In this document: positions 4,190 to 53,221 of the stretch, piece after piece
Layout: every line of letters begins with the position of its first letter
Numbering within the stretch: the stretch's first letter is position 1
Assembly (NCBI GenBank): GCA_022821145.1
Contig: JAJEEE010000081.1
Coordinates: 1-64,000 of the forward strand
Length of the DNA stretch: 64,000 nucleotides
Source: Acidobacteriota bacterium
GTDB taxonomy: Bacteria > Acidobacteriota > Terriglobia > 20CM-2-55-15
Direction: 5' to 3'
Notes under the pieces: model-generated
Databases searched by the model: none
The model's input: only the letters and a program-made list of their open reading frames with translations
What the model was told of the DNA's origin: nothing
Program-made: the position numbers and the translations under genes

Positions 4190-4249
4190 GACAGGCGGCA
4201 GGTCAGACGCCGCGCGCGGACACGCGCCATGGACGGGCGGCGCTCGGCT

Positions 4250-5386: not shown

Positions 5387-5535
5387 AAGATCCCCATCGG
5401 CGGCGAGGTTCAAGCTCGCCCCACCCGAAATGACAGAATGCAACCTGGACGGATTATAGACGATGGAAACGCGACTGGATAGCGTCGGCCCCGGACGCGC
5501 GGCCGAAAACCGCACCGGGACGCCGACCGGGGAGT

Positions 5536-5679
5536 TCAATCGGCCGGCGGTTCGCGGCGGTCCGCGGACTTCTCGATCCATAGGCCCGTCGCGCCGACGG
5601 CCGCGGCGAAAAGGAACACCACGCCGATCACGATCAGGACGAATCCCCAATCCACCGACCGGATCAACTCACCGATCAT
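5536..5679 (-). CDS. Small single-span membrane protein (47 aa), unknown function
   Basis: A short open frame from ATG 5679 encodes 47 aa with one strongly hydrophobic helix ([20 protein letters not shown]) and a charged C-terminus rich in Arg, Asp and Glu. It begins 28 nt after the end of the multi-pass membrane protein gene in the same direction, which suggests it is the last gene of the cytochrome operon. The reading is plausible because the frame holds a clean N-in transmembrane pattern, but no family is recognised. Confidence 0.5.
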
Positions 5680-5707
5680 CGTGCGCCTCCGCGAGCCGGA
5701 TCACGGA

Positions 5708-6640
5708 TCAGAAGGAATTGCCGAGGAACGGCAGCATGCGGCCGAAGTAGATGACCCCGAACCAGAGGGCCATCGAGGACGCCGCGATCACGCGTCCCCG
5801 CAACGGCGCATCCTGTCCGGCCTTCAGGTTCCACGCATCATCGAAGATGGTGAAGTAGATCGCGTTCACCCCGGCGATCACGATCAGCAGCACCTTGAAG
5901 TAGAAGGACACGTTCTGCGTGTATTGCCCGGGCGTGGCGATGAAGAACAGCATGCCGGTCACGGTGTTCAGGGCGAACCCGAGCACGCCCCACGGAAGCA
6001 GCCGGTGCAGCGCCGGGAACGCGAGGGTCTTGCCGACGCCCAGCATACGGAGGTTCACGACGAGCACGACACCGAACAGCAGGCCCAGGCCGATGAAATG
6101 GAGCGTCTCGCTCACCGTCCAGGCCCATGTGGCCGCGACGAACCAGTCCGCCACGGCCGTGCTCCAGGTGAAGGCGGCGGCCGCCGCCACGGCCTCGCCG
6201 GCGGCGCGGATCTCCACGTGGTTGATCACGCCCCCCAGGCTCGCCGTCCGCGCCATCAACCCGCACGAGATCAACGCCAGCACGAGCACGGCCGAAACGT
6301 TCCGGTTCGTCGTTCGCCCCAACCGCCGGTACTGCCACAACCCGAACCAGGCAACGGCCGCTGTGGCCTGCATGACCATGAAGGCCAGCAGGGCCGCATC
6401 CTGGTGCCTGTGAACCAATGCCTCGTTGTAGTTCGCGTCGCCGGCGATCACTTCGTCGGCCATGTTCCCGGTCACATACGCCGGAATCGTCAGGAACCCG
6501 ATGACGAGAAAGACGCACAGGCCGGCGCGCCGCAACTCGTCGCTGCGCGCGAAGAGCGCGGCGATGAAGAAGCCCAGCCCCAGGATCAGACCGATCGTCG
6601 GAAAATGGTTCAACAGGATATGCGCGTACGCGAGGTTCAT
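5708..6640 (-). CDS. Multi-pass membrane protein, possible b-type haem or redox partner (DUF2231/DUF6644-like)
   Basis: 310 aa with about eight hydrophobic helices. The N-terminal half (HILLNHFPTIGLILGLGFF, then HRHQDAALLAFMVM) resembles DUF2231-type membrane domains; the second half (TVSETLHFIGLGLLFGVVL, then the NAIYF helix) resembles DUF6644. Several His residues lie at helix ends and could bind haem; this is inference. The start ATG 6640 was chosen because the upstream codons are polar and lack membrane character. It follows the diheme cytochrome gene by 75 nt and precedes the 47-aa membrane protein, suggesting an envelope redox operon. Confidence 0.7.
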   Translation of the reverse strand: MNLAYAHILLNHFPTIGLILGLGFFIAALFARSDELRRAGLCVFLVIGFLTIPAYVTGNMADEVIAGDANYNEALVHRHQDAALLAFMVMQATAAVAWFGLWQYRRLGRTTNRNVSAVLVLALISCGLMARTASLGGVINHVEIRAAGEAVAAAAAFTWSTAVADWFVAATWAWTVSETLHFIGLGLLFGVVLVVNLRMLGVGKTLAFPALHRLLPWGVLGFALNTVTGMLFFIATPGQYTQNVSFYFKVLLIVIAGVNAIYFTIFDDAWNLKAGQDAPLRGRVIAASSMALWFGVIYFGRMLPFLGNSF

Positions 6641-6715
6641 GTCCGCAGTCCGAACTCCACGGAGTCTATCAGCCGGTGTTGAAACTGTACATGGCCGCGC
6701 GGGAGCGGCCACCGG

Positions 6716-7663
6716 TTACCGCGGAGGATAGTAGACGCTGTCGACGGGTTGCGGTTCCGTCAGGTAGTCCTGGTCCTTGAACGGATATGACGGGCGGGCC
6801 ATGGAATTGATGAACGCGGACAGGTGCTGCGCTTCCTCGTCCGTGGTGCTCCCGGGATCCATGTACGGCATCATGTAACGGATGATGCCGGCCAGCGTGT
6901 AGATGCGGGACGCGCCGGCCCCGTCGTTCCACGAGTCGGGACCCCAGAGGGGCCCCGCCTTCTTCGTCCCGATCTGGACGCCCTGCCCGTCCTCGCCGTG
7001 ACAGTTCGTGCACCGCTCCATGAATATGGCTTCCCCGAGCTTCGCGTCGAGCTGATCCATCGGCAAGCGGTTCGCCTCGGCGATCGTGTTGCGCCGCCTC
7101 CAGGGCGGATTCTCCCCCGGCTCGAACCCCCGCGACAGCCAACGGAGATAGGCGGCGATGGCCCGGACCTCGGGCGTCTCGGGCGTCGGAAGGACATGAT
7201 CGTCCATGGCCGGAAGCGCCGACGCGATCAGTCCCGTGGAGTTCTGGCTGCGAAAGAAACAGCCGACGATGCGGTCCTCGATCGTGAAATCCCGTCCGGC
7301 GCGCCGGTTGTACTCGGGGAACATGGCGGTCACGCCCACCAGCGGGAGCGCCCGCTCGCGCTGCCCGGCGTTGATGTGGCAGTTGTTGCACGAAACACCG
7401 CCCGGGGTCAGGTGCGGCGCCTCGGCGGGCGTGTCGGTGAAAAGCCGGAAACCCCACCGGACCTGCTCCGCGGTCTCGGAGCGTCCGAGCGTCGGATCCT
7501 CGAGGGGATTGTTGGGCACGTCCCACGCCGTGACCATCGTGGTGGACGAGGAGACGAGGGGCCCCGGGAGCTTTCCCAACGCCGGATCGAGAGGATCGAC
7601 ATCCGCGCAGGCGCCGATTCCGGCGGCGGCCATCAACGTCAGAATCGGGAAGCGGCGGCCCAT
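6716..7663 (-). CDS. Diheme c-type cytochrome lipoprotein
   Basis: 315 aa, exported. The N-terminus is a lipoprotein signal with a lipobox-like Gly-Ala-Cys ending at Cys19. Two haem-binding motifs are visible: CNNCH at 92-96 and CTNCH at 218-222, each in a cytochrome c domain, an architecture resembling SoxA/TsdA-like diheme proteins. ATG 7663 gives the best signal peptide. It is the first gene of a minus-strand operon with a multi-pass membrane protein and a 47-aa membrane protein, and is divergent from the Tat-exported protein at 7719. It probably transfers electrons in the periplasm; the substrate is unknown. Confidence 0.85.
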   Translation of the reverse strand: MGRRFPILTLMAAAGIGACADVDPLDPALGKLPGPLVSSSTTMVTAWDVPNNPLEDPTLGRSETAEQVRWGFRLFTDTPAEAPHLTPGGVSCNNCHINAGQRERALPLVGVTAMFPEYNRRAGRDFTIEDRIVGCFFRSQNSTGLIASALPAMDDHVLPTPETPEVRAIAAYLRWLSRGFEPGENPPWRRRNTIAEANRLPMDQLDAKLGEAIFMERCTNCHGEDGQGVQIGTKKAGPLWGPDSWNDGAGASRIYTLAGIIRYMMPYMDPGSTTDEEAQHLSAFINSMARPSYPFKDQDYLTEPQPVDSVYYPPR

Positions 7664-7718
7664 CAGGTTTGCGAGTATAATCCGGCGCGAAACGTCGGTA
7701 CAAGACACGGAGGGTCTC

Positions 7719-8429
7719 ATGCAGCGGAATCGTACGAGGCCGCGCGTGGCGCGGCGATCCTTCCTCGGCCGGCTGGCCGCAGGGTCCACCGCCTTCGGCG
7801 CCGCGTTCGCGGCGGGCGGCGCCGCCGGCGCGCCGCAGACCGGATCGATCGGGAGCGACTGGAAGCCCGGGCTTCACGCCATCGACGACTGGCTGGACCG
7901 GATGCCCGGCCGCCACCGGTTCGTCGTGGACAACGTCACGGCCGCCGGTTTCGGCGCGGCCATGGCCTATGCGAACAACTTCTTCGAGGTCAACAGGAAC
8001 GCGTACGATCTGGAATACGACGACGTCGCGGTCGTCCTGTTGGCGCGCCACTTCTCGACGCCGTTCGCCTTCAACGACGCCATGTGGCAGAAATACGGCG
8101 CCGCCTGGGCCGGGCCGATCGATTTCAACGACCCGCGAACCGGCGCGCCGCCCACGGCCAACCTCTATAACGCCGGCTCCGTGCCCGGCCTGGGCAACCG
8201 GGGGCTGACGCTGGACGCGATGTTCGAGAAGGGGATGAAGGTGGCCCTGTGCGAAGTCGCCGCGCGCGGCTTCGCCGGCATGGCGGCTCGAGCGGCCGAC
8301 GCCGACTCGGACGCCGTTTTCGAGGAGATCATGGACAACCGGCTGTCCGGAGTCCAACCGGTGCCGGCCGGGATCGTGGCGATCAGCCGGGCTCAGGAAC
8401 GCGGGTACACGTTCAGTTATACGGCCTGA
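7719..8429 (+). CDS. Tat-exported DsrE-like protein
   Basis: 236 aa starting at ATG 7719 behind a GGAGGG ribosome-binding site. A twin-arginine signal (RRSFLGRLAAG, about 12-22) is followed by an Ala-rich hydrophobic stretch. The mature part has the DsrE/DsrF-like pattern: an early alpha/beta unit with AYANNFFEVN, then DVAVVLLARHFSTPFAFND, KVALCEVAARGF, and a terminal VPAGIVAISRAQERGYTF. DsrE-fold proteins often handle sulfur or sit beside redox complexes. Divergence from the diheme cytochrome operon (about 55 nt apart) suggests a shared regulatory region. Exact role not known. Confidence 0.75.
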   Translation: MQRNRTRPRVARRSFLGRLAAGSTAFGAAFAAGGAAGAPQTGSIGSDWKPGLHAIDDWLDRMPGRHRFVVDNVTAAGFGAAMAYANNFFEVNRNAYDLEYDDVAVVLLARHFSTPFAFNDAMWQKYGAAWAGPIDFNDPRTGAPPTANLYNAGSVPGLGNRGLTLDAMFEKGMKVALCEVAARGFAGMAARAADADSDAVFEEIMDNRLSGVQPVPAGIVAISRAQERGYTFSYTA

Positions 8430-9465
8430 CGGCCGGCTGCTGTTGCGTGCAGCAGTGGATGCCGCCGAACCCGTGCACCATGGCGGTGGCGTCCACGCCC
8501 ACGACGCGGCGGGAGGGAAAGCAGGACCGTATGGTCTCCAGCGCCGTCCGGTCCTTCGCCTGGCCGAAGGTCGGCACGAGAATGGACGCGTTGCCGATGT
8601 AGAAGTTGGCATAGCTGGCCGGCAGCCGGCCTCCGCCTCCGAGGACGGGATCGGGCATGGGCAGCTTCAACACCGTGAACGGCCGGCCGGCCGCGTCGAC
8701 GGCGCCCTCCAGACGCCGGTGGTTGTCCTCGAGGACGCGATGATTCTCGTCGGCCGGGTCGTCCTCGAACGCCGCCAGAACCGTCCTCGGCCCGACGAAC
8801 CGTGCCACGTCGTCGACGTGCCCGTCGGTATCGTCCCCAACGATCCCGCCGCCGAGCCAGACGATCCGGGACACTCCCAGGTAGTCGCCGAGCGCGCGCT
8901 CGATTTCGGCGGACGTCAGGTGCGGGTTGCGGTTGGCGTGCAACAGGCACTGTTCGGTCGTCAACAGCGTCCCCCGGCCGTCGACGTCGATCGATCCACC
9001 CTCCAGCACGATTCCGGCCCGGAACCGTTCCAGTGACAGGCGGCGGTTCAGCTCCGAAGACACCGCCCCGTCCGAGGCCAGATCCGCATACTTGTTGCCC
9101 CACGCGTTGAACTCCCACTCCACCGCGGCGACGCTCCCCGTCCCGTCGTCGACGACGAACGTGGGTCCGTAGTCCCGTATCCAGACGTCAACCGTGGGGA
9201 TCACATGGAAGTCCACGCGGTGGAGCACGGCCGGGGGAAGGAGCGCCCGGGCCTCCGCTCTCCCGTCGGGGTCGTCGACGAGCAGGCCCACCGCCTGGTC
9301 CGCCGCCAGCGCCGCGGCGACCCGCGCACAGGTCACGCGGACCGCGTCCAGCAAGGGCCCGGGCCAGGTTTCCGTGTTCGTCGGCCAGACGAGCCAGACG
9401 CGTTGCTGCGGTTCCCATTCCGCCGGCATCCGGTAGCCGCGCGGCCGTGGGGCAGGAGCGCTCAT
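8413..9465 (-). CDS. aguA: Agmatine deiminase
   Basis: Converts agmatine to N-carbamoylputrescine and ammonia in the putrescine pathway. 350 aa, the usual length. Family motifs are PAEWEPQQRVWLVWP at the N-terminus, WIRDYGPTFVV, EGGSIDVDGRGTLLTTEQCLL, DDTDGHVDDVARF, and the C-terminal GGIHCCTQQQP with the catalytic Cys at about 338. ATG 9465 overlaps the TGA of the upstream amidohydrolase gene (ATGA), so the two pathway enzymes are translationally coupled. The last 17 nt overlap the convergent DsrE-like gene. Confidence 0.93.
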   Translation of the reverse strand: MSAPAPRPRGYRMPAEWEPQQRVWLVWPTNTETWPGPLLDAVRVTCARVAAALAADQAVGLLVDDPDGRAEARALLPPAVLHRVDFHVIPTVDVWIRDYGPTFVVDDGTGSVAAVEWEFNAWGNKYADLASDGAVSSELNRRLSLERFRAGIVLEGGSIDVDGRGTLLTTEQCLLHANRNPHLTSAEIERALGDYLGVSRIVWLGGGIVGDDTDGHVDDVARFVGPRTVLAAFEDDPADENHRVLEDNHRRLEGAVDAAGRPFTVLKLPMPDPVLGGGGRLPASYANFYIGNASILVPTFGQAKDRTALETIRSCFPSRRVVGVDATAMVHGFGGIHCCTQQQPAVRPYN

Positions 9466-10337
9466 CGAGTCAGGTCGTGGTAGGTCTCCGGCCGGCGGTT
9501 CGCAAGGAATCCCCAACCGCTCCGCGATCGATCGACCCGGTCGAGGTCGAGGTCGGCCACGAGCACCTGCTCGCGCGTTCGGGAGGCGCGGGCGATGACC
9601 TGCCCGAACGGGTCGGCCACGAAGGAACCGCCCCAGAACTTCAGGTCGCCCTCCCGGCCCACCCGGTTCACCGCGACGACGAACACGCCGTTCATCGACG
9701 CGTGGCTCCGCATCGCCTCCTCCCACCGCCGCGCCGAGAACGGTTCCTCCCGGCGGAACTCCGGAAACCAGCCGATGGCCGTGGGATAGAACAGGATCTC
9801 GGCCCCGCGGAGCGCGTTGACGCGGGCCGCCTCCGGGAACCACTGGTCGTAGCAGATCAACGGGGCGATCGTGGCCCCCCGGGTCCGGACCTGCACGTAA
9901 CCCAGGTCGCCGGGCTCGAAGTAGTACCGCTCGTAGTAGCACGCGTCGTGGGGCACGTGCATCTTGCGGTACTTGCCGACGCGCTTCCCGGACCTGTCGA
10001 AGACCAGCGTCGTGTTGTACCGCTTCCCGTTCCGCGCCCTCTCGTAGATCGAGCCGCCCACCAGGACCACGCCGCATTCTGCGGCGGCGCGCGCCAGGAA
10101 CCGGGAAGTCCGTCCGGGAACCGGTTCCGCGCGGGCGTGGTGTGCGGGATCTTCCGTCCGCGCGAAATAGGGGCCGGCGAAGAGTTCCTGTAGACAGACG
10201 ATGCCCGCACCGAGGTCCGCGGCCTCGCGGATCCGGCGAGCCGTTTCGGCGAGGTTGCGTTCGAAATCGGCCGAGGCGCGCGCCTGAACCAGTCCCACGC
10301 GCACGGCCCCCGGCCGCGACCGTACATGACGCTCCAT
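9462..10337 (-). CDS. aguB: N-carbamoylputrescine amidase
   Basis: Nitrilase-superfamily hydrolase of 291 aa that completes putrescine synthesis from agmatine. The Glu-Lys-Cys triad is visible in CLQELFAGPYF, GKYRKMHVPHD and APLICYDQWFPEAAR. The start at ATG 10337 is chosen because the family N-terminus (RVGLVQARAS) follows closely; the frame is open much further upstream as an artefact of high GC. It is coupled to aguA downstream and divergent from the amidase gene at 10431. Confidence 0.93.
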   Translation of the reverse strand: MERHVRSRPGAVRVGLVQARASADFERNLAETARRIREAADLGAGIVCLQELFAGPYFARTEDPAHHARAEPVPGRTSRFLARAAAECGVVLVGGSIYERARNGKRYNTTLVFDRSGKRVGKYRKMHVPHDACYYERYYFEPGDLGYVQVRTRGATIAPLICYDQWFPEAARVNALRGAEILFYPTAIGWFPEFRREEPFSARRWEEAMRSHASMNGVFVVAVNRVGREGDLKFWGGSFVADPFGQVIARASRTREQVLVADLDLDRVDRSRSGWGFLANRRPETYHDLTR

Positions 10338-10430
10338 GATGTCCGCCTGCGCGCCGCCCATCGTCGCATATTCGGGCCCATCGATGGGTGGCCTTGCTAC
10401 ACTACCGGAAGGGACGCGTCCCGAAACACG

Positions 10431-11897
10431 ATGCGCCGCGCCTTTACGCGTTATCGACATGGACTGCTCGCCGGCTGCGCGTTGGCCGCGTCGCTCGCGG
10501 TCCCGGCGGCGAATCTTCTCTCCTTCCAGGGCGAGGAACCGTCCGGCTCGCTGGTGATCTACCTGGAGGACGGCCCCCTGGTGTCCGAAGCGCGGGACCG
10601 GGCGGGCGCGACCTACGTGTCGATCCTGGAGCTGGCCGACCGGCTCGGGCTTCCCCACGCCCACGACGCCGATTCCGACACGCTGACCATCCGTGGCCCG
10701 CGGGCGGACCTGGAAGTCCTCAACAACAGCAACGCGGTGCGGCTCGGCCCGCGGACCGTTCGCATGCGTGCTCCCGTCGTCCGCGACGGCGACGGGTGGT
10801 GGGCGCCCATCGAGTTCCTGACGCTGCCGCTGGCCGACGCCAGCGGCGTCCGCTTCCGGCACGAGGCCGGGCGCCCCCGGATCTTCGCCGGCAACGTCGC
10901 CGCGACGCTGTTGGACATGGACGCCGCGCCCACCGGCGACGGGACGCGCCTCACCATCCGCGCCGGCCGGACGATCAACGTCCGCGTCCAGCAGGACCGC
11001 GACAACGATCGCGTCGTCCTGTCGGTCGATCGCGCGCCGTTCGACCCGAGGCGGGAATCGCTCGAATACCGGGACGGCGCGGTGCAGTCGGTCCGCTTCG
11101 ACGATTCGGACGGCAGCGCGCGCATCGTCGTCGGCACACGGGGGCGGCTTGCCAACGTGCGCCTCGTCCCCGCCGATGGGAACCGGACGTTCCACGTCGA
11201 TTTCGTTCCGGCCGATCCGGTCGCGCGCAGCACCGTCGCGGCGGCGCCCGTTCCGGACGAACGCCGCACGGCCGGCGCGCTGCGCGTCGTCGCCATCGAC
11301 GCGGGACACGGCGGCCTCGACAGCGGCACGGCCGCCCACGGAACGCTGGAGAAGGACCTGACCTTGGCCCTGGCGCGCCGGCTCCGCGCCGCCATGGAGA
11401 ACCGCCTCGACGCCGCGTTCGTTCTCACGCGCGACGACGACCGGGAAGTCAGCCACGAGGAACGCGCGGCGGTCGCCAACAACAGCGGCGCCGATCTGCT
11501 GATCAGCCTGCACGTCGGATACTCGATGGACCCGACCGAATCCACCGCATCCGTGTTCGTCATGCACGCCGTCGAGGAACACGAGGCCCCGCCGGTCGGG
11601 GACGCGATGTTCCGACCCTGGTACCGCGCGTGGGAAGGCACCCGGGGCGAGACGTTGCGGCTGGCCGAGATCCTTCACCGGAGGTTGGAGGCGGCCATCC
11701 CGCGTTGGGAGTTCGCGGTGCGCCGCGCGCCGGTGGGGCTTCTTGCGAGCACGGTCATGCCGTCGGTGGTCATCGAGCTCGGCAACGCGAACAACGCGTC
11801 GGATCTGGATGTCCTGACGAGCGGCGCCTTCCAGGACCGGTTGGCATCGGCCGTGCTGGAAGCGATCGAGGCCTACGGCCGCGGAGAATGGCTGTGA
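10431..11897 (+). CDS. N-acetylmuramoyl-L-alanine amidase (Amidase_3, AmiC-like), exported
   Basis: 488 aa. A signal peptide (basic MRRAFTRYRHG then a hydrophobic run) is followed by an N-terminal region with copper-amine-oxidase-like and AMIN-like beta repeats (about 45-270) and a C-terminal zinc amidase domain (about 290-480). Catalytic residues are visible in VAIDAGHGGLDSG, TLEKDLTLALARRL (Glu), LLISLHVG (His) and VVIELGN. It cleaves peptide stems from peptidoglycan, probably during cell separation. The start ATG 10431 gives the signal peptide. A GerMN gene follows 31 nt later. Confidence 0.9.
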   Translation: MRRAFTRYRHGLLAGCALAASLAVPAANLLSFQGEEPSGSLVIYLEDGPLVSEARDRAGATYVSILELADRLGLPHAHDADSDTLTIRGPRADLEVLNNSNAVRLGPRTVRMRAPVVRDGDGWWAPIEFLTLPLADASGVRFRHEAGRPRIFAGNVAATLLDMDAAPTGDGTRLTIRAGRTINVRVQQDRDNDRVVLSVDRAPFDPRRESLEYRDGAVQSVRFDDSDGSARIVVGTRGRLANVRLVPADGNRTFHVDFVPADPVARSTVAAAPVPDERRTAGALRVVAIDAGHGGLDSGTAAHGTLEKDLTLALARRLRAAMENRLDAAFVLTRDDDREVSHEERAAVANNSGADLLISLHVGYSMDPTESTASVFVMHAVEEHEAPPVGDAMFRPWYRAWEGTRGETLRLAEILHRRLEAAIPRWEFAVRRAPVGLLASTVMPSVVIELGNANNASDLDVLTSGAFQDRLASAVLEAIEAYGRGEWL

Positions 11898-43036: not shown

Positions 43037-43507
43037 CTACCGCCGGCGGCTCCGCAGCCAATCCCGGAACGCGCGCAATCGGGGGAGCGACTCCCGGTCT
43101 TTCACGCGATTCGCGGCGTCCTTGCTCCCGATGATGTCGTCGATATGGCACACCGGGAATCCGTCGATCTCGACGCGCCGCGTCCACGCATCCTCGAACC
43201 GCTCGATCCCGTCCGGCGCGAACACGATGTCGACGTCGAACGGACCGTCCTTCAACTGGACGAAGTCTTTTCCGCGTTCCAGGTCCCGTCGATGCTCCTC
43301 GGTCAGGACGAACCCGATGTCCACGAGCGCGCTCGCCAGCGCCTGCCCGTTCCGGCGTTCCTTCTCGACAAAGAGGTCCGCGTCCTGGGTGGTGTCGGGG
43401 AATCCGAGCAGAATGGCGCCTGATTTCCCGATGAACAGGTACCGGACGGCATATCGAGAGAGCGCGTCGCGCAACTCCGTGGCCTGTCGATAGTCAAACG
43501 CGGGCAT
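43037..43507 (-). CDS. Nucleotidyltransferase-fold protein (AbiEii/DUF6036-like)
   Basis: 156 aa from ATG 43507. The fold is suggested by RYLFIGKSGAILLGFPDTTQ followed by DADLFVEKE, in which G-S and T-x-D-x-D resemble the minimal nucleotidyltransferase motif, and by GPFDVDIVFAPDG with a third acidic site. It overlaps the upstream 75-aa gene by 14 nt. This two-gene layout is like type II/IV toxin-antitoxin pairs (AbiE, MNT families); the function here is inferred. It lies on the opposite strand inside the CRTAC1-cytochrome cluster. Confidence 0.75.
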   Translation of the reverse strand: MPAFDYRQATELRDALSRYAVRYLFIGKSGAILLGFPDTTQDADLFVEKERRNGQALASALVDIGFVLTEEHRRDLERGKDFVQLKDGPFDVDIVFAPDGIERFEDAWTRRVEIDGFPVCHIDDIIGSKDAANRVKDRESLPRLRAFRDWLRSRRR

Positions 43508-43865: not shown

Positions 43866-46613
43866 ATGACTCTACTTATCATTCTGTTGGTCACCGGCGC
43901 GTACCTCTACGCGTTCCCCGGCGCGACGGTCGTTTTCGTGGCGGCCGTTCTGGTCCATGCCGGCGCCGGGTGCCTGGCCGTAGCGCGGTTCGGACCCGGC
44001 ATGGCGCGGCGATGGCGGGAGTCGACGTTCCAGGGGCGGGCCGGCTGGCTTCTCCTGTCGGCGGGCGCCGCCACCGGCGTGGCGCTGATCGTCACGGGAA
44101 CGGCGCGGCCGTACCAATCGCTGCTGCTGACTCACATCGTGCTGAGCGTGGCGGGATCGGCCCTGCTCGCCGCACGGGTCGTCGCCGCCGGAAACGCGAG
44201 CCGGAGGACGGCTTTGGGACGCCTGGCGGCGATCGGCGCCGCCGTCGTCCTGGTCTCCACGGGCGCCAACGCGGTCCGGCACAACTGGCGAGGCTTCGTC
44301 ATCGGCAACCCCGAGCTGCCGCCGCGGAGCATGTTGGAGGAAGGCGGCGGCGCGGGCGGACCTTTCTTCCCCAGCTCTTCCCGAACCAGCACGGACGGGC
44401 TCGTGCCGGTCGATTTCTTCACCGAGTCGGAAAAGTGCGGGCGATGTCACGAAGACGCGTACGCCGAGTGGTCGTCCTCGGCGCATCGCTTTTCGTCGTT
44501 CAACAACCAGTGGTACCGCAAGAGCATCGAGTACATGCAGGATGTCGTCGGGCCGGAGCCGTCCAAGTGGTGCGGCGGATGCCACGATCCCGCGCTGCTG
44601 TTCACGGGAATGATGGATCGGCCGATTCGGGAAGTGATCGACGAGCCCGAGGCCCACGTCGGATTGGGATGCGTGATGTGCCATTCCATCGCCGTTGCGG
44701 ACAGCATGGGCCAGGGCGGGTACACGATCGAATACCCGCCGCTTTATGAGTGGGCCACCAGCGACAATCGACTCGTCGAGGCCGTGCATGACTTCGTCGT
44801 TCATCTGAACCCCGAGGCCCACCGCCGGGCGTTCCTCAAACCCGCGCTCCGGGATCAGGCGGGCGAGTTCTGCTCGACCTGCCACAAGGTCCACCTGGAC
44901 GAACCGGTCAACGGCTACCGCTGGATCCGGGGTTTCAACGACTACGACAACTGGCAGGCCAGCGGCGTGTCCGGACAGGGCGCACGGTCGTTCTATTATC
45001 CTCCCGCCCCCCAGACGTGCACCGATTGCCACATGCCGGAAGTGGAGTCGGACGATCCCGGAAGCCGGGACGGATTCGCACACAGCCATCGCTTCCCCGC
45101 CGCCAACACGGCGTTGCCGATCGCGAACGACGATCCGGCCCAACTGGAGGCGACGATCGACTTTCTTCGGAACGACATCGTCAGCGTCGACATCTTCGCG
45201 ATATCGTCGGCCGGCCCCCTCGACGCATCCGATACCGGACTGCTGACGGGAGAGCTCTCCACCACGTTCGCCGTCGGGGAGGAAGCCGACACAGGAGGCC
45301 CCGTCGTCATACGCGAAACCGCGCCGGTGTCGGCGCCGATCGATCGCGTGACCCCGACCGTCCGCCGCGGCGACTCGGCCCGCGTGGACGTGGTGGTGCG
45401 GACGCGCCGGGTGGGTCACTTCTTTCCGGCGGGAACCGTCGACGCCTTCGACGTCTGGGTGGAGCTGGTCGCGACCGACGATACGGGCCGAACCCTGTTC
45501 TGGAGCGGCCGGGTCGGCGACGACGGCCGGGGACCGGTCGACGCGGGGGCCCACTTCTACCGGTCCCTGCTGATCGACGCGCACGGCAATCCCATCGACA
45601 AACGCAACGCGTGGGCGGCGCGCGCCGTCGTCTACACGCGCCTGATCCCGCCCGGCGCCGCCGACACCGTGCACTACCGGTTGGAGATTCCGGAAGATGC
45701 CGGCGACGCCATCCACATCGAGGCGCGTCTGCACTACCGCAAGTTCGCGTGGTTCAACACGCAGTTCTCCTACGCCGGCGTCTGGGAGGGGGAACCGGGC
45801 GACCGGGCCCCGGGATACGACGACGGCGCGTGGCGGCTGGACGGCGACACGAGCGGCGTTTCGGGCGCGCTCAAGGAGATTCCGGATCTACCGATCGTGA
45901 CGCTGGCCGAGGACCGGGTCACGATCCGCGTCGACGACGACGGCGCCACGGAACCCGCGGTCCGGATCGCGACCGCGCCCGAGGACTGGGAGCGATGGAA
46001 CGACTACGGGATCGGGTTCCTGCTCAAGGGGGACCTGCGGGGAGCCGAAGCCGCGTTCACGCGGGCCACCGAGGCCGATCCCGACAACGTCGACGGCTGG
46101 GTCAACATCGGGCGCGCGCGCGTCGCGGAGGGCAATCTGGACGGCGCCCGCGAAGTGCTCGAACGGGCGCTGTCCATGGACCCGGACCTGGCCCGGGCCA
46201 ATTACTTCTACGCCCGGGTCCTGAGGGAAGAGGGGGATTTCACAGCCGCTTTGGAACGCTTCGAGACTGTCGTTCGACAGTATCCGCGCGACCGCGTCGT
46301 CTGGAACGACATCGGCCGCATTCACTTTCTCGAACGCCGCTACGCGGACGCCGTCGAAGCCTTCGGCCGCGTCCTGGCGATCGACCCGGAAGATCTCGAC
46401 GCCCACTACAACCTGATGCTTTCCTACAACGGCCTCGACAACGACGAACGCGCGCGCGAGCACGAGGCGCTGTACCTCCGATTCAAGGCCGACGAATCGG
46501 CCCAGGCCCTCACCGGACCGTATCGCCGGGAACACCCGGAAGACAACAACGAACGGCAGGCCATCCACGAGCACCGGTCGATCGATCTCACTTCGGTCGA
46601 GGGCCCGCGGTGA
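43866..46613 (+). CDS. Pentaheme c-type cytochrome with N-terminal membrane helices and C-terminal TPR repeats
   Basis: 915 aa. Three or four hydrophobic helices (about 1-140) anchor it. Five CxxCH motifs follow: CGRCH 191-195, CGGCH 236-240, CVMCH 269-273, CSTCH 336-340 and CTDCH 385-389, together like a cytochrome c554-type multiheme domain. A beta-rich region (about 410-690) follows, with the start of a TPR array at about 710: WNDYGIGFLLKGDLRGAEAA, VNIGRARVAEGNLDGAREVL, FYARVLREEGDFTAALERFE and NDIGRIHFLERRYADAVEAF. It likely moves electrons across the envelope while binding partners through its TPRs. The next gene overlaps by 4 nt (GTGA). Confidence 0.9.
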   Translation: MTLLIILLVTGAYLYAFPGATVVFVAAVLVHAGAGCLAVARFGPGMARRWRESTFQGRAGWLLLSAGAATGVALIVTGTARPYQSLLLTHIVLSVAGSALLAARVVAAGNASRRTALGRLAAIGAAVVLVSTGANAVRHNWRGFVIGNPELPPRSMLEEGGGAGGPFFPSSSRTSTDGLVPVDFFTESEKCGRCHEDAYAEWSSSAHRFSSFNNQWYRKSIEYMQDVVGPEPSKWCGGCHDPALLFTGMMDRPIREVIDEPEAHVGLGCVMCHSIAVADSMGQGGYTIEYPPLYEWATSDNRLVEAVHDFVVHLNPEAHRRAFLKPALRDQAGEFCSTCHKVHLDEPVNGYRWIRGFNDYDNWQASGVSGQGARSFYYPPAPQTCTDCHMPEVESDDPGSRDGFAHSHRFPAANTALPIANDDPAQLEATIDFLRNDIVSVDIFAISSAGPLDASDTGLLTGELSTTFAVGEEADTGGPVVIRETAPVSAPIDRVTPTVRRGDSARVDVVVRTRRVGHFFPAGTVDAFDVWVELVATDDTGRTLFWSGRVGDDGRGPVDAGAHFYRSLLIDAHGNPIDKRNAWAARAVVYTRLIPPGAADTVHYRLEIPEDAGDAIHIEARLHYRKFAWFNTQFSYAGVWEGEPGDRAPGYDDGAWRLDGDTSGVSGALKEIPDLPIVTLAEDRVTIRVDDDGATEPAVRIATAPEDWERWNDYGIGFLLKGDLRGAEAAFTRATEADPDNVDGWVNIGRARVAEGNLDGAREVLERALSMDPDLARANYFYARVLREEGDFTAALERFETVVRQYPRDRVVWNDIGRIHFLERRYADAVEAFGRVLAIDPEDLDAHYNLMLSYNGLDNDERAREHEALYLRFKADESAQALTGPYRREHPEDNNERQAIHEHRSIDLTSVEGPR

Positions 46614-48292
46614 GGCGCGCGTTGGCGAACGCGTCGGTGCTGGGAATGCTCGCATGGCCGCATGCGGCGACCGCGCAGGCCATATCGTTCACGGACGTCA
46701 CCGGCGCGGCCGGGATCGACTTCATCCACGAAAACGGCGCGACGGGCGACAAGTACCTCCCGGAGACCGTCGGCTCCGGCGCCGCGTTCATCGATTACGA
46801 CGCCGATCGATTTCCCGACGTGTTCTTCGCGAACGGCGCCCACTGGCCAGGCGACCCGGACGGCGGCGCGACGTCCCGGCTCTACCGGAACAACCGCGAC
46901 GGGACGTTCACCGACGTCTCGGCGGAAACCGGGCTCGACCTGAGGATGTACGCCCTGGGCACGGCCGTCGCCGACTACGACAACGACGGCGACGACGATC
47001 TCTTCGTCACCGCGCTGGGGCAGAACCGCCTGTTCGCGAACGACGTGGTGGACGGGCGCCGCGTTTTCCGCGATCGAACCGAAGCGGCGGGCCTGGCCGG
47101 CCCGGAAGAGTTCTCGACGAGCGCGGCCTGGGCCGACTACGACAACGACGGCGATGTCGACCTGTTCGAGGCCAACTACGTCGATTGGTCAATCGACGAC
47201 GACATTCTCTGCTCGATCGAAGACATCAAGATCTACTGCACGCCCGAGTCCTACCCGGGGGCCTCGCTGCGGCTCTGGATGAACAACGGCGACGGGACGT
47301 TCACGGACCGCACCGAGCCCGCCGGGCTCCTGGATTCCACGTCGAAGGGCCTGGGCATCGCCGCCTTCGACTACAACCGGGACGGCTGGTCCGACGTCCT
47401 GGTGGTCAACGACACGGAGCCCAACAAGTTGTACGAGAACAGGGGCGACGGCACGTTCGTCGAGGTCGGGCTGCTGGCCGGTATCGGCCTCAGCGAAGAC
47501 GGCATCGCGCGGGCCGGCATGGGCGTGGACACGGCCGACTACGATCGTTCCGGCCACCCCAGCGTCGTTATCGGAAACTTCTCCAACGAGATGCTGGCCC
47601 TCTTTCACAACGAGGGCAACGGGTTGTTCGTGGACGAGGCGCCGCGGTCCGAGGTCGGGCGGCGAAGCCTCCCGACGCTGGCCTTCGCCTGCCTGTTCAT
47701 CGACTACGACCTGGACGGCTGGCTGGACATCCTCGTCGCGAACGGCCACGTCGTCGAGGTGATTCAACAGATCCAGCCGCGCATCACCTACGCGCAGCGG
47801 CCGCACATGTTCCGCAACCTGGGCGGCGGCGGCTTCGAAGAGGTGACCGACCGCCTGGGCGCCGATTTCGCCTCGGAACGCGTCGCGCGGGGCGCCTCGG
47901 TGGCCGACATCGACAACGACGGCGACCTGGACATCCTGATGACCACCAGCGGCGGACCCGCCGTCCTGTTCCGCAACGACGGCGGGTCGCGCCAGGGCCT
48001 GCGAATCCGCCTGGAAGGCGTCGACTCGAACCGCAACGGGTTGGGGGCGCGCGTCACGGTGACGGCCGGCGGCGACGCGCAGACCCAGACCCTGCGCAGC
48101 GGCTCGGGCTACCTGTCGCAGAACGAACTCGTGCTGACGTTCGGCCTCGATGACCGGACAACGGCGGACCGGGTCGAGGTCCTCTGGCCCGGCGGAACCG
48201 TCGACCGCCTGGAAAACGTGCCCGCGGGACGCATGATCACGGTGCGGGAAGGCCGCGCGAGGACCGCCGAAGTCGTGCCTTTCCGGAACTGA
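46610..48292 (+). CDS. Exported CRTAC1-like FG-GAP/VCBS protein with ASPIC/UnbV domain
   Basis: 560 aa from GTG 46610, overlapping the cytochrome stop codon (GTGA), so translation is coupled. A weak signal sequence (VLGMLAWPHAATAQA) is followed by FG-GAP/VCBS blades with calcium loops DYDNDGDDDLFVTA, DYDNDGDVDLFEANY, DYNRDGWSDVLVVND and DYDLDGWLDILVANG. The C-terminal ASPIC/UnbV domain (about 470-540) shows GVDSNRNGLGARVTVTAGG, GSGYLSQNELVLTFGLD and DRVEVLWPGGTVDRLE. Close coupling to a multiheme cytochrome suggests the two products meet at the cell surface. Confidence 0.9.
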   Translation: MRRALANASVLGMLAWPHAATAQAISFTDVTGAAGIDFIHENGATGDKYLPETVGSGAAFIDYDADRFPDVFFANGAHWPGDPDGGATSRLYRNNRDGTFTDVSAETGLDLRMYALGTAVADYDNDGDDDLFVTALGQNRLFANDVVDGRRVFRDRTEAAGLAGPEEFSTSAAWADYDNDGDVDLFEANYVDWSIDDDILCSIEDIKIYCTPESYPGASLRLWMNNGDGTFTDRTEPAGLLDSTSKGLGIAAFDYNRDGWSDVLVVNDTEPNKLYENRGDGTFVEVGLLAGIGLSEDGIARAGMGVDTADYDRSGHPSVVIGNFSNEMLALFHNEGNGLFVDEAPRSEVGRRSLPTLAFACLFIDYDLDGWLDILVANGHVVEVIQQIQPRITYAQRPHMFRNLGGGGFEEVTDRLGADFASERVARGASVADIDNDGDLDILMTTSGGPAVLFRNDGGSRQGLRIRLEGVDSNRNGLGARVTVTAGGDAQTQTLRSGSGYLSQNELVLTFGLDDRTTADRVEVLWPGGTVDRLENVPAGRMITVREGRARTAEVVPFRN

Positions 48293-48309
48293 CAGGAGTC
48301 GCCCGATCC

Positions 48310-51300
48310 ATGACGCGCATTCTTCGATCCTTCATCCGTTTCCGTGCCCCGCTGGCCGGCGCCCTGCTGGCGGCGGCGCTTGCGGCGGGCTGCTCGACGC
48401 CGCGCGGAAACCCGGAACCCGCGGGCGCGAGCCCGGCGCGAATCGAGGCCGTTCGACAAAACACGCTGGGCGTGGCCTACATGACGCGCCAGTCGACCGA
48501 GCAGGCGCTCGGCCTGTTCCAGGCGGCGTACGAGGCGGACCCGACGTTCCGGACGGCTCGGTTGAACCAGGCCATCGCCCTGTTTCACCTGCAGCGGCTC
48601 GAGGAAGCCTCCGAGATCCTGTCCGAGTTGACGGCCGCATGGCCCGACTACACGCGCGCCTGGTACAACCTCGGCCTCACGTACCGCAACCTCGGCCGTC
48701 CGGTGGACGCCGCGGGCGCGTTCCAGCGGGCCGTCGATCTGGATCCGGGCGACGCCGACTCGCACTACATGCTCGGCTTGATGCAGTTCCAGGCCGGAAA
48801 CTACACCGAATCGCTCGACGCTTTCGACCGAGCCATGGCCATTCGCCCCAACCACGCGTCCGCGGCCTACGGCACGGCGCGCGCCCACCGCATGGCAGGC
48901 AACATCGAGCAGGCGATTTCGGAAACCACGCGCTACCAGGAAATCGTCGCGCAGCAACTCGACGCTCCGCTGGGTTCCAGTTACGGGGACCAGGGCCCGT
49001 ATGCGCTGGCCGAAGACGCCGCCGGCCGGGTCGCGCGTCCCGACACGGCCATCGACGTCCGCTTCGAGCCGGCGAACGCCGGTTTCGACGCGGCGCACCG
49101 GCCATCGGGCGACGGTTCTTCCGGTCTTCTGGAAGGCGGCGCCTGCGTCCTCGACTTCGACGCCGACGGGGCGGCCGACATTTTCCTCCCCGGCGCCGAC
49201 AACTCGGGCCGACTTTACCGCAATGACGGCGCGGGCCTTTTCCGCGGCACGGACGTGACGGTCTCGGCAACCGCGTGCGCGGCCGGGGATTTCGACAACG
49301 ACGAGAGCGTCGACCTGGCCGTCAGCGGCCCGGATGGCGTGACGCTGCTTCGCAACGCCGGCGGCGGCGCGTTCGAGGACGTCTCGGAGGCCGCGGGCGT
49401 GACGGCGGCGCCCTCCCCGGGCGAGTTCGCCATGGGACTGGGCTTCGTCGATTACGACCACGATGGGGATCTGGATCTCTATGTCGTCCGCGCGGCCGCT
49501 TCCGAAGACGCGCCCCCCGGCGCGGACGCCGGGAACACGCTGTGGCGCAACAACGGCGACGGGACATTCACCGACGTTACCGCCGAGACCGCGCTCGGCC
49601 TGGGCGCCGACTCGAACGCGGCGGCCGTCGTCACCGACATCGACAACGACCGCGCGATCGACTTCGTCGCGACCGGCCCGACGGGCCCCGTCATCCGGCT
49701 CAATGCGCGTATCGGAGAGTTCGACACGCTCGAGTGGACGGAACCGTTTCCCGGGGCCGCCGCGGGCGTTGCGGTTCTCGATTTCGACAAGGACTCGTGG
49801 ATGGACCTCGCCTTCACGCATGGGGACGCACCCGGCCTGACGCTGTGGAGGAACGTCGACGGAACGGCATTCGAACGCGTCGCGTTGCCGGAGACCGGCT
49901 GGTCGCGCGGTTGGGGCCTGACCGGGATGGACTATGACAACGACGGCTGGGTCGACCTGGCGGCGGTGGGCGACGGTCCGGACGGCGGCGAGGTCCGGGT
50001 CTTCCGGAACCGGGGCGTCGACGGCTTCGAAGACACGTCCGGCGCCGTCGGCTTGTCCGAGGTCCCGGTGACCCGGCCGCGCGCCCTGGTCACGGCGGAC
50101 TTCGACTCGGACGGCGACCGCGACCTGCTGGTCGCGTTGAACGGCGGCTCCCCGCTCGTGCTCCGCAACGACGGCGGCAACGCCAACGCGTCGCTGGAAA
50201 TCCGCCTCGTGGGACTGGCCGACAACACGAGCGGCATCGGGACCAAGGTCGAGGTGTTCGCGGGCGTCCTGCGCCAGAAGGTCGAGGTCCACGGGGCGAC
50301 CGGCTACATGGGACAGAACGCGCCGACGGCGCACTTCGGACTGGGCAACAACGCCGAGGCCGACGCCGTCCGCATGCTCTGGCCCACGGGCGTCCCCCAG
50401 GACGAAGTCGAGCTGGCCGCGCGCCAAACGCATGTCATCGGCGAGAGCGACCGCCGCGGCAGTTCCTGTCCGGTCCTGTTCTGCTGGAACGGCGAGACCT
50501 ACGGGTTCGTCACAGACGCCATCGGCGCCGGCATCCTCGGTCACTGGGTCGCGCCGGGACAGCGCAACGTCTCCGATCCCACCGAGTACGTCCGGGTCCC
50601 CGGCGCGATGGTCGCGCCGCGTGACGGGATGTTGAGCTTCCGGTTGGCCGAGCCGATGGAGGAGATCGTCTACCTGGACCAGGTCCGTTTGCTGGCCGTC
50701 GACCACCCGGCGAGCGTCGAGGTCTACCCCCACGAGTACTTCGCCGTCGCCCCGCCATTCCCCGAGTTCGGGGTGATCGCGGCGCGGGACGCCCGCCCGC
50801 CCCGGGGCGCCTGGGACGAGCAAGGGCGAGACGTCCTCGATCGCCTGACCGCCATCGACCGGCGTTACGTCGACGGTTTCGAAGAGGCGCCGTTCCGCGG
50901 ATTCGCCGACATGCACTCGCTGGAACTCGACCTGGGCGACATCGATACCGGCGGGCCGGTCCGTCTCCTGATGCACGGCTTCATCGACTACTTCACGGCG
51001 ACGTCGGCCTTCGCGGCGCACCAGGCCGGGCTCGTCCCCGTGCCGCCCTACATCGAAGCATTGAACGACGCGGGCGAGTGGGTTCGCGTCATCGAAGACG
51101 TGGGATTCCCGGCCGGTTTGACCCGCACTCTGGCGAGGGACATCACCGGACGGCTCCCCGAAGGCACGCGGCGCATCCGCATGACCACGAACCTCCAGAT
51201 CTACTGGGACCGGATCCTCATCGACGCGACGCCGGAACCGCAACCGTTCGAAATCCAGGAAGTGCCGCTGGCTTCGGCCACGCTCGAATGGCTGGGTTTT

Positions 51301-51750
51301 CCGCGCATGGTCACCGGCGACATTCCGGCCGATGTCCGCTACGTCTACGACGAGATCAGCCGCACGGGGCCCTACGTCCGGCACGCGGGCGCCTACACCC
51401 GGTTCGGCGACGTGCTGGAGTTGTCCTTGGAGTCCGACAACCGCATGGTCATCTTCGGCGCAGGAGAGCAGGTGGCTCTGGAGTTCGATCCATCCGGCCT
51501 GGAGGCGCTCCCGGACGACTGGGTCCGCGACTATTTCTTCTACGCGGACGGATTCGCCAAGGACATGGACTTCTACGCGGCGCATGCCACGACCGTGGAA
51601 CCGCTGCCGCACCACGGCGACGAGCCGTACCCCTACCCTTCCGGCCGGACGTTCCCGGTGTCGGGCGACGGCCTGGAGTACCTGTTGGAGATGAACACGC
51701 GGCACGAGTCCGGATCCGGCGCCTCGAGCTTCCGGTACGAGTACGACTGA
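48310..51750 (+). CDS. Giant TPR + FG-GAP/VCBS + ASPIC/UnbV lipoprotein
   Basis: 1146 aa. The signal peptide ends with a lipobox (LAAGC, Cys about 28). TPRs occupy about 45-210 (AYMTRQSTEQALGLFQAAYE, AWYNLGLTYRNLGRPVDAAG, HYMLGLMQFQAGNYTESLDA). FG-GAP/VCBS blades with calcium loops follow (about 275-620, e.g. DYDHDGDLDLYVVR, DYDNDGWVDLAAVGD), then ASPIC/UnbV (about 630-700: NTSGIGTKVEVFAG, TGYMGQNAPTAHFGLG). A further 430-residue domain with no family I recognise (from CWNGETYGFVTDAIGAGILG) ends the protein. It follows the CRTAC1 gene by 17 nt and precedes the amidase by 4 nt. Confidence 0.88.
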   Translation: MTRILRSFIRFRAPLAGALLAAALAAGCSTPRGNPEPAGASPARIEAVRQNTLGVAYMTRQSTEQALGLFQAAYEADPTFRTARLNQAIALFHLQRLEEASEILSELTAAWPDYTRAWYNLGLTYRNLGRPVDAAGAFQRAVDLDPGDADSHYMLGLMQFQAGNYTESLDAFDRAMAIRPNHASAAYGTARAHRMAGNIEQAISETTRYQEIVAQQLDAPLGSSYGDQGPYALAEDAAGRVARPDTAIDVRFEPANAGFDAAHRPSGDGSSGLLEGGACVLDFDADGAADIFLPGADNSGRLYRNDGAGLFRGTDVTVSATACAAGDFDNDESVDLAVSGPDGVTLLRNAGGGAFEDVSEAAGVTAAPSPGEFAMGLGFVDYDHDGDLDLYVVRAAASEDAPPGADAGNTLWRNNGDGTFTDVTAETALGLGADSNAAAVVTDIDNDRAIDFVATGPTGPVIRLNARIGEFDTLEWTEPFPGAAAGVAVLDFDKDSWMDLAFTHGDAPGLTLWRNVDGTAFERVALPETGWSRGWGLTGMDYDNDGWVDLAAVGDGPDGGEVRVFRNRGVDGFEDTSGAVGLSEVPVTRPRALVTADFDSDGDRDLLVALNGGSPLVLRNDGGNANASLEIRLVGLADNTSGIGTKVEVFAGVLRQKVEVHGATGYMGQNAPTAHFGLGNNAEADAVRMLWPTGVPQDEVELAARQTHVIGESDRRGSSCPVLFCWNGETYGFVTDAIGAGILGHWVAPGQRNVSDPTEYVRVPGAMVAPRDGMLSFRLAEPMEEIVYLDQVRLLAVDHPASVEVYPHEYFAVAPPFPEFGVIAARDARPPRGAWDEQGRDVLDRLTAIDRRYVDGFEEAPFRGFADMHSLELDLGDIDTGGPVRLLMHGFIDYFTATSAFAAHQAGLVPVPPYIEALNDAGEWVRVIEDVGFPAGLTRTLARDITGRLPEGTRRIRMTTNLQIYWDRILIDATPEPQPFEIQEVPLASATLEWLGFPRMVTGDIPADVRYVYDEISRTGPYVRHAGAYTRFGDVLELSLESDNRMVIFGAGEQVALEFDPSGLEALPDDWVRDYFFYADGFAKDMDFYAAHATTVEPLPHHGDEPYPYPSGRTFPVSGDGLEYLLEMNTRHESGSGASSFRYEYD

Positions 51751-51754
51751 AGCG

Positions 51755-53221
51755 ATGAACGATCTCGTCCAGTTGTCGGCATCCGACATGGCCGCCCGCG
51801 TCGCCGGCGGGAAGCTCTCGCCCGTGGAGCTGGTGGAGGCGCACCTGGAACGCATCCGCGCGCTGAACCCGAGACTCAACGCGTTCGCCCACGTCGACGC
51901 GAAAGGCGCGCGGCGCGCGGCCCGGGCCTCGGAAGCGCGGCTGGGCGGCCGGGGGCCGAGGGGGCCGCTGGAAGGCGTGCCCCTCAGCGTCAAGAGCTCG
52001 ATCGCCGTCCGCGGTTTCCCCTGGGAATGCGGTTCCGAGTTGCGGCGGGGCGTCCGCGCCGACGGCGACGCGCCCCTGGTGGCGCGCCTCAGGGCCGCGG
52101 GCGCGATCATCCTGGGCAATACCAACGTCCCGGAGTTCCTGATGGCGTGGGAAACCAACAACAGGCTCTACGGACACACCGACAATCCGTGGGACCTGGA
52201 ACGGACCGCCGGCGGATCGAGCGGCGGGGAGTCGGCTGCGATCGCCGCGCGTCTCTCGGCGGGCGGCATCGGCACGGACGGGGGCGGATCGATCCGCGTC
52301 CCGGCGCACTTCACGGGCATCTGCGGACTGAAGCCCACGCCCGGACGCGTCCCCGCGACCGGGCACTTCCCGGGCGCCGCCGGACCGTTCTCGGCGCTGG
52401 GCGTCATCGGCCCGATGGCGCGGACGGTCGAGGACACGCGCCTGCTGTTCAGCGTCGTCGCCGGCCCCGACGACGGCGACCCGTATTCGGCCCCGGTGCC
52501 CGTCGAGGAGCCGGCCGCCGACCCCCGCAAGCTGAAGATCGGGTTCTTCGAGGACGACCAGCGCACGCCGGTCACGACCGAGACCCGGATCGCCGTTCGC
52601 CGCGCGGCCGCGGCGCTCGAAGAACAGGGTTTCGTCGTCGAGGAGTTCCGGCCCGACAACCTTCTCGAGATGCGGCGGCTGTGGTGGAACCTGTTCGTCC
52701 GGGCCGGCCGGCTCCTGCTGCAGCCCATGATCGAGGGACGCACGGCGGAACTGTCCCCCATATTTCACGAGTACCTGGAATTCGCGCGGGACGAGGACCC
52801 GCTCACGTTGGACGAGCTCCTGAAGACGCTCGTGGCGCGCGACCGCGTGCGAGAACACCTGTTGGCCCAGATGCGCGAACACCCGATCCTGGTTTGCCCC
52901 ATCGGCGCCGCGCAGGCGTTCCGGCACGGCGAACGGGAATGGAGCATCGACGGACAGGAAGTCGCCTACTCCGACGCATGGAGCCACACCCAGTGGTTCA
53001 ACCTGACGGGAAACCCGGCCATGGCCGTGCCCATCGACGTGGCCGGGGGGCTGCCCATCGGCGTTCAGATCGTCGGACGTTGCTGGGAAGAAGCCAGCGT
53101 CCTGGCGGTGGCGGCCCGGCTCGAAGAAGCCGTCGGTCCCCTCGGCCCCCCGCCGATCGACGCGATCACCGGGCCGAGCACGGAGTCGGATTCCAGCCCT
53201 CGCCCTCGGGGATCTTCTTGA
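51755..53221 (+). CDS. Amidase-signature family hydrolase
   Basis: 488 aa cytosolic enzyme. The Ser-cisSer-Lys triad is visible: Lys in PLSVKSSIAVRG, cis-Ser and nucleophile within TAGGSSGGESAAIAARLSAG and GTDGGGSIRVPAHF. WSHTQWFNLTGNPAMAVPI near the C-terminus is also typical. The family hydrolyses amides or acts as Glu-tRNA(Gln) amidotransferase A; the absence of gatB/gatC here and the variable linker argue for a catabolic amidase. It is the last gene of the cytochrome operon (start 4 nt after the lipoprotein). Its 3' end overlaps the convergent secreted-protein gene by 56 nt. Confidence 0.88.
   Translation: MNDLVQLSASDMAARVAGGKLSPVELVEAHLERIRALNPRLNAFAHVDAKGARRAARASEARLGGRGPRGPLEGVPLSVKSSIAVRGFPWECGSELRRGVRADGDAPLVARLRAAGAIILGNTNVPEFLMAWETNNRLYGHTDNPWDLERTAGGSSGGESAAIAARLSAGGIGTDGGGSIRVPAHFTGICGLKPTPGRVPATGHFPGAAGPFSALGVIGPMARTVEDTRLLFSVVAGPDDGDPYSAPVPVEEPAADPRKLKIGFFEDDQRTPVTTETRIAVRRAAAALEEQGFVVEEFRPDNLLEMRRLWWNLFVRAGRLLLQPMIEGRTAELSPIFHEYLEFARDEDPLTLDELLKTLVARDRVREHLLAQMREHPILVCPIGAAQAFRHGEREWSIDGQEVAYSDAWSHTQWFNLTGNPAMAVPIDVAGGLPIGVQIVGRCWEEASVLAVAARLEEAVGPLGPPPIDAITGPSTESDSSPRPRGSS

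Follow-up and report, generated by a model that had tools for sequence, protein, structure and literature searches.

A recurrent gene set in Acidobacteriota joins a multihaem membrane cytochrome to CRTAC1-type proteins and looks like an envelope electron-transfer machine

What does a bacterium do with a multihaem cytochrome, two CRTAC1-type proteins, and an amidase that are encoded back to back? The 64,000-nucleotide stretch of Acidobacteriota DNA analysed here (the window) raises this question through four packed plus-strand open reading frames (ORFs), P0001 to P0004, whose lengths and gaps of -4, 17, and 4 nucleotides we verified as an earlier note on this DNA had read them. Acidobacteriota are abundant and poorly understood, and we know of no established bacterial role for CRTAC1-type proteins. 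We found no description of the operon in the literature searched. The gene set, which is common to hundreds of soil and sediment Acidobacteriota, pairs the cytochrome with two proteins of the calcium-loop propeller type and looks like an uncharacterised envelope electron-transfer machine. As we discuss below, we give a probability of roughly one half to the reading that the operon is an inner-membrane, quinol-linked electron-transfer module serving a periplasmic assembly of CRTAC1 and tetratricopeptide-repeat (TPR) proteins.

P0001 (43866-46613, plus strand; ORF and Pfam) is a fused membrane cytochrome of 915 residues, in which five predicted transmembrane helices are followed by a pentahaem c554-like region, a beta region, and C-terminal TPRs; it was examined in an AlphaFold2 model and in alignments of 31 and 111 sequences. 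Its gene overlaps by four nucleotides that of P0002 (46610-48292, plus strand), a CRTAC1-type propeller protein with a GTG start at 46610, a signal-peptide-like N-terminus, and FG-GAP and UnbV_ASPIC domains. P0003 (48310-51750, plus strand) begins 17 nucleotides after P0002 and is a TPR-CRTAC1 protein of 1146 residues with Pfam matches to TPR, FG-GAP, and UnbV. FG-GAP repeats and UnbV_ASPIC scored above cut-off in P0002, in P0003, and in P0005, the product of a gene upstream of the operon, in agreement with the earlier assignment of CRTAC1-like propellers to three products; NCBIfam provided a name for neither CRTAC1 protein of the operon, with matches such as ExtKL far under cut-off.

A neighbourhood search bore out the expectation that the cytochrome and CRTAC1 genes would show recurrent synteny. 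Of 61 genomes from the class, 39 had the cytochrome (E<=1e-60), mostly at 47-86% identity, and a profile of its haem region matched 39 of 149 genomes in an even sample of the phylum (E<=1e-40), 15 of them at >500 bits and the rest only through divergent relatives. A scan of public genomes returned at least 465 relatives, of which the best 80 were nearly all labelled Acidobacteriota. In a locus sample that is weighted to close relatives, with ORFs called by simple rules and with contig breaks that hide neighbours, the next gene downstream of the cytochrome was a same-strand CRTAC1 gene in 92 of 97 assessable loci. This count is from tblastn; an ORF-based count, 82/97, was too low through start-codon choice. 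The downstream proteins had a median identity of 57% to P0002. Linkage of the TPR-CRTAC1 gene to the cytochrome was found in 37 of the 55 loci with enough flank (33 downstream, 4 upstream). Across the 61 genomes, 35 had both genes, four had the cytochrome only (two of these, G007 and G016, have contigs that end early), two had the TPR-CRTAC1 gene only, and 20 had neither (Fisher p=3e-10), and shuffles within families matched the observed value in 2 of 200,000 cases. Eleven genomes, including all eight sampled from one family (f3), had both genes with no linkage found; in several of these the TPR-CRTAC1 gene was well inside a contig among other neighbours, and in others the contigs were fragmented. 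Linkage alone therefore fails to explain the co-occurrence and, because genes related by descent are not independent, we stress the within-family shuffles and the unlinked cases. The grouping is more than chance, and recurrent synteny and co-inheritance back the proposal of the earlier note that cytochrome, CRTAC1 propeller, and TPR-CRTAC1 protein form an envelope assembly.

Which of many CRTAC1 proteins belongs to the cytochrome? The window's genome (4.18 Mb, 99% complete) encodes 17 UnbV_ASPIC domains, compared with a single copy of the cytochrome. In a tree of 76 CRTAC1 proteins, the direct neighbours of close cytochromes all fell in one clade of 42 rows (support 100/100). The clade also took in the CRTAC1 proteins beside three distant cytochromes, four additional copies located near the same cytochromes, two that adjoin cytochromes interrupted by a stop or frame break, and one member from a genome without the cytochrome. 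CRTAC1 neighbours of other distant cytochromes fell in other clades. Judged from this tree and from its position directly after the cytochrome, P0002 is the specific partner of the cytochrome.

The earlier note had described P0001 as a membrane-anchored five-haem cytochrome with C-terminal TPRs. The membrane assignment stood and the simple anchor did not. In the AlphaFold2 model (mean predicted local distance difference test score, pLDDT, of 72.5), five N-terminal helices precede the haem-motif region, the beta region, and the TPRs, and the prediction is of an inner-membrane protein with these five helices. Two invariant transmembrane histidines, and a link to di-haem cytochrome b, had been overlooked. 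These candidate b-haem ligands are H31 in the second helix (codon 43956-43958, plus strand) and H90 in the fourth (44133-44135, plus strand), which are histidine in 109 of 109 and 110 of 110 sequences aligned there in the 111-sequence alignment, and both lie toward the periplasmic side by the positive-inside rule. In distant relatives, H31 corresponds to the first histidine of an H-x17-H pair and H90 to the first of an H-x13-H pair. Both pairs were present, in the second and fourth helices respectively, in 10 of 10 anchored distant relatives (25-36% identity); shuffled sequences reached the full four-histidine pattern in a mean of 0.14 of 10 and in two at most. DUF4405 (PF14358), a domain that has been placed in the cytochrome b family and has a pair of conserved histidines (PMC5898192), scored above cut-off in the distant relatives L170 and L171 and weakly in L168, L169, and L184. 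In the window's subfamily, the second position of each pair (+18 and +14) is mostly occupied by other residues. We infer that H31 and H90 may bind one b-haem near the periplasmic face, as the remnant of a di-haem cytochrome b, and that the cytochrome probably has six haems, one of b type and five of c type. With two histidines in one membrane domain and four in the other, a one-haem site on the periplasmic side can naturally be compared with a di-haem cytochrome b.

The soluble part of P0001 has exactly five CXXCH motifs, all on the plus strand, and its C-terminal TPR region (residues about 705-878; 45978-46499, plus strand) has Pfam TPR matches and high-pLDDT helices, as the earlier description required. 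The motifs CGRCH (residues 191-195; 44436-44450), CGGCH (236-240; 44571-44585), and CVMCH (269-273; 44670-44684) were invariant in 111 sequences. CSTCH (336-340; 44871-44885) is followed in the alignment by the invariant K341 and by H343, and in CTDCH (385-389; 45018-45032) C385 and C388 were invariant and H389 was present in 110/111. Cytochrome_C554 (PF13435) matched residues 190-274 with E=2.4e-8 (35.2 bits, cut-off 20.8). Among histidines outside the motifs, H207, H319, H408, and H518 were invariant and H343 was found in 110/111, which makes these five residues candidate distal ligands, one per c-haem. A fold search with the whole cytochrome gave TPR matches only among the 50 listed. In the same genus (G001), an orthologous cytochrome gene (L034:10816-13560) is broken near residue 334 by an in-frame TAG, for which an assembly error, a pseudogene, and read-through are all possible.

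How might these parts work together? We infer the direction, substrate, and protein contacts of the module as follows. The b-haem site at H31/H90 would exchange electrons with the quinone pool, and electrons would then run along the five periplasmic c-haems, most likely from quinol to a periplasmic acceptor. The TPRs of the cytochrome and the TPR-CRTAC1 protein would keep the CRTAC1 subunit in contact with the haem domain, and a substrate or the next carrier would dock where these two meet. The amidase would be an optional neighbour. A broader proposal, which we put forward tentatively, is that envelope redox enzymes include a separate class to which the cytochrome belongs, namely single-chain b/c-type multihaem quinone oxidoreductases whose active assembly has a CRTAC1 propeller as an essential subunit, and which would have diversified across Acidobacteriota from a di-haem cytochrome b form. 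Because this widely conserved operon links one CRTAC1 clade with a membrane cytochrome, it offers the CRTAC1 family a function that can be tested, and it points to a branch of the acidobacterial electron-transport chain that has gone unrecognised.

Several observations weigh against the quinol-linked module. First, the N-terminal domain of P0001 matched neither PF14358 nor any cytochrome b profile, and the b-haem thus rests on two residues and on the distant relatives. Second, two metagenome-assembled genomes labelled Poribacteria (L144, L146) have a cytochrome of 51% identity with no CRTAC1 gene next to it. These may reflect transfer or mislabelled bins, and in L144 there is in addition a large FG-GAP-type ORF at a distance of 7 kb. 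Third, distant relatives keep four of the five distal histidine candidates and do not keep H343. Because only four persist, one haem in these relatives may be open, and it may be catalytic. This absence likewise makes it less certain that each of the five c-haems has bis-histidine ligation. In a further departure, the first haem motif of the distant relatives L168-L171, L184, and L173 is CX4CH (CGASGCH, CGTSGCH, or CGDLSCH) rather than CXXCH.

These distant relatives also bear on what the cytochrome meets in the membrane and beside it. In 17 distant loci examined, a CRTAC1 gene directly flanked the cytochrome gene in nine (L168-L171, L173, L175, L177, L178, and L184); one opposite-strand gene separated the two in L181, and in L176 a TPR-CRTAC1 gene was one gene away. 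In L176, L178, and L182, the cytochrome had no multi-helix domain and was followed by a small gene with one CXXCH motif, whose product Pfam placed among the class I cytochromes c in both cases scanned. This arrangement fits a quinone as the membrane-side partner of the anchored forms and a cytochrome c as that of the soluble forms.

The alternative that survives best, although we consider it rather unlikely, makes the pentahaem domain the enzyme: like NrfA or MccA, it would have one open haem and would reduce a small nitrogen or sulfur compound in the periplasm. CRTAC1 would then shape the pocket or deliver substrate, and the b-haem would feed the domain with electrons from quinol. The closest solved relatives of the haem region are in the c552/c554/MccA group, which includes reductases: its profile matched the pentahaem cytochrome c552 (PDB 5ze8) with E=2.2e-6 and MccSep with E=3e-4, and matches to MccA (0.35) and c554 (0.42) were not significant. 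Long stretches near the haems, FNNQWYR and RGFNDYDNWQ, are strictly conserved in the 31-sequence alignment, which suggests more than an electron wire, and CRTAC1 genes flank hydrazine-synthase-like genes as well (PMC12758564). The four distal candidates of the distant relatives would leave one haem available, but in the window's subfamily the near-universal fifth histidine is enough for five bis-histidine haems, and its motifs are all CXXCH, with no CXXCK. Genes for ScdA-type repair proteins lie near L169 and L184, and L169 also has Rrf2, NnrS-like, and molybdopterin oxidoreductase genes; nitrogen-oxide genes, however, do not recur beside close relatives, and these neighbours hint that nitrogen oxides matter to the L169/L184 branch only.

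The amidase gives rise to a second alternative. P0004 (51755-53221, plus strand), which begins four nucleotides after P0003, is an amidase-signature enzyme of 488 residues that matched PF01425 over the full-length profile (1-445/445; E=1.3e-110) and has GGSSGG and GGGSIR motifs in its sequence. Among 102 loci, 26 had an amidase gene immediately before the cytochrome, on either strand and in 18 cases on that of the cytochrome; the amidase gene was downstream in the window and in a sister genome, and was beside the unlinked TPR-CRTAC1 gene in L163. The amidase is thus linked but optional rather than core: the fourth gene that the earlier note listed is real in the window, and it is not a constant member of the set. 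A permease-like gene, named by sequence reading, followed in 17 loci. It is improbable, with the amidase and the permease both absent from most loci, that the operon serves the metabolism of a nitrogenous compound, in which the cytochrome would oxidise a periplasmic substrate, electrons would pass to quinone, and the cytosolic amidase and, in some lineages, an uptake permease would process the product. Other neighbours include a kinase/response-regulator-like pair, again named by sequence reading, that precedes the operon in ~17 loci, and a very large protein family encoded just upstream of the cytochrome in L042, L068, L131, L133, and L137, of which the member scanned (L133, 1579 residues) is a leucine-rich-repeat protein.

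The C-terminal part of P0003, about 430 residues that had been left without an assignment, still has none: residues about 717-1136 (50458-51717, plus strand) matched nothing in Pfam and no PDB sequence. The structure prediction that the earlier note called for gave an all-beta domain (AlphaFold2; pLDDT 79.4, predicted template modelling score 0.84), and a fold search with it found nothing below E=8e-3, the resemblance to a jelly roll being partial and too weak for use. The reading of P0003 as a lipoprotein did not hold as a defining feature. The window's protein has the lipobox-like motif AAGC, and a crude count with uncertain starts found such a motif in 7 of 55 homologues; it is lineage-specific, occurring in the window's genus. 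Extracellular electron transfer, in which the cytochrome and CRTAC1/TPR proteins at the surface would pass electrons to minerals or to a polymer outside the cell, as the earlier note had suggested, is the weakest alternative and very improbable. In its favour, CbcL, the best functional analogue, feeds such transfer (PMC9129911), and P0003 has the beta-rich domain and the genus-level lipobox-like motif. Against it, few of the homologues counted have the motif, the cytochrome is predicted to be in the inner membrane, and the families recurring among clustered neighbours (~10 kb; mostly judged from sequence) included no porin-like protein and no outer-membrane cytochrome.

The upstream CRTAC1 gene, P0005 (at 41332), is real, and its membership of the assembly was not upheld. 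P0005 belongs to a different clade in the tree, where it groups with paralogues of its own genome, some of them beside TonB-receptor-like and TPR genes, and the 842-nucleotide gap between it and the operon holds a minus-strand ORF. We therefore rejected it as an operon member. The intervening ORF (43037-43501) is nucleotidyltransferase-like by eye and had no Pfam match at 1e-5. Elsewhere in this genome (L150, L151, L153, L154), CRTAC1 genes lie near those for very large proteins and TPR proteins; one large protein scanned has CarboxypepD_reg and an outer-membrane barrel and is TonB-receptor-like, and one TPR protein scanned also has a PPIC-type PPIase (peptidyl-prolyl isomerase) domain. These settings hint that CRTAC1 proteins of other clades have a different role, at the outer membrane. 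Cytochrome, TPR, and CRTAC1 genes are also neighbours at a second place in this genome (L152, C51:206000-223000, about 851-10762), which encodes in a row a DUF1592/DUF1588/DUF1587-type protein with a cytochrome domain, a DUF1552 protein, a one-haem cytochrome c, a TPR protein, and a CRTAC1 protein.

How does the proposed quinol-linked module compare with known systems? The hydrazine-synthase-like loci (PMC12758564) also place a CRTAC1 gene beside genes for haem proteins, but their haem proteins and lineages are different, and here one CRTAC1 clade follows a fused cytochrome throughout Acidobacteriota. NrfA has five periplasmic c-haems, and the possible arrangement of four bis-histidine haems and one other in the distant relatives recalls it. 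P0001, by contrast, has no NrfA match, has a fused membrane domain and a CRTAC1 partner, and shares with its 111 homologues motifs that are all CXXCH, apart from one H389R, with no CXXCK; some NrfA clades do have CXXCH at the active site (PMC8840924). Members of the c552 (5ze8)/MccSep/MccA/c554 group are related to the haem region by sequence profile, the alignment to 5ze8 covering mainly its first part (hmm positions 37-138 of 356), and, as far as the alignment shows, they lack the fused membrane domain and the TPRs. With DUF4405 and prokaryotic cytochrome b561-like domains (PMC5898192), the link runs through the distant relatives, whose membrane domain matches DUF4405 and carries four histidines on two helices, whereas P0001 keeps one histidine pair and has no profile match. 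The closest functional parallel is CbcL of Geobacter sulfurreducens, in which a single chain combines a b-type membrane domain with a multihaem c domain and can pass electrons from the quinone pool to the periplasm (PMC9129911). P0001 shares this plan of one chain with a membrane domain, putatively b-type, and a periplasmic multihaem c domain. CbcL, however, has two b-haems, six helices, and nine c-haems (PMC9129911), whereas P0001 has two conserved transmembrane histidines, enough for one b-haem at most, five predicted helices, and five CXXCH motifs in a c554/c552-type domain, and adds TPRs and CRTAC1 partners. By analogy, the module would work like CbcL but is no CbcL.

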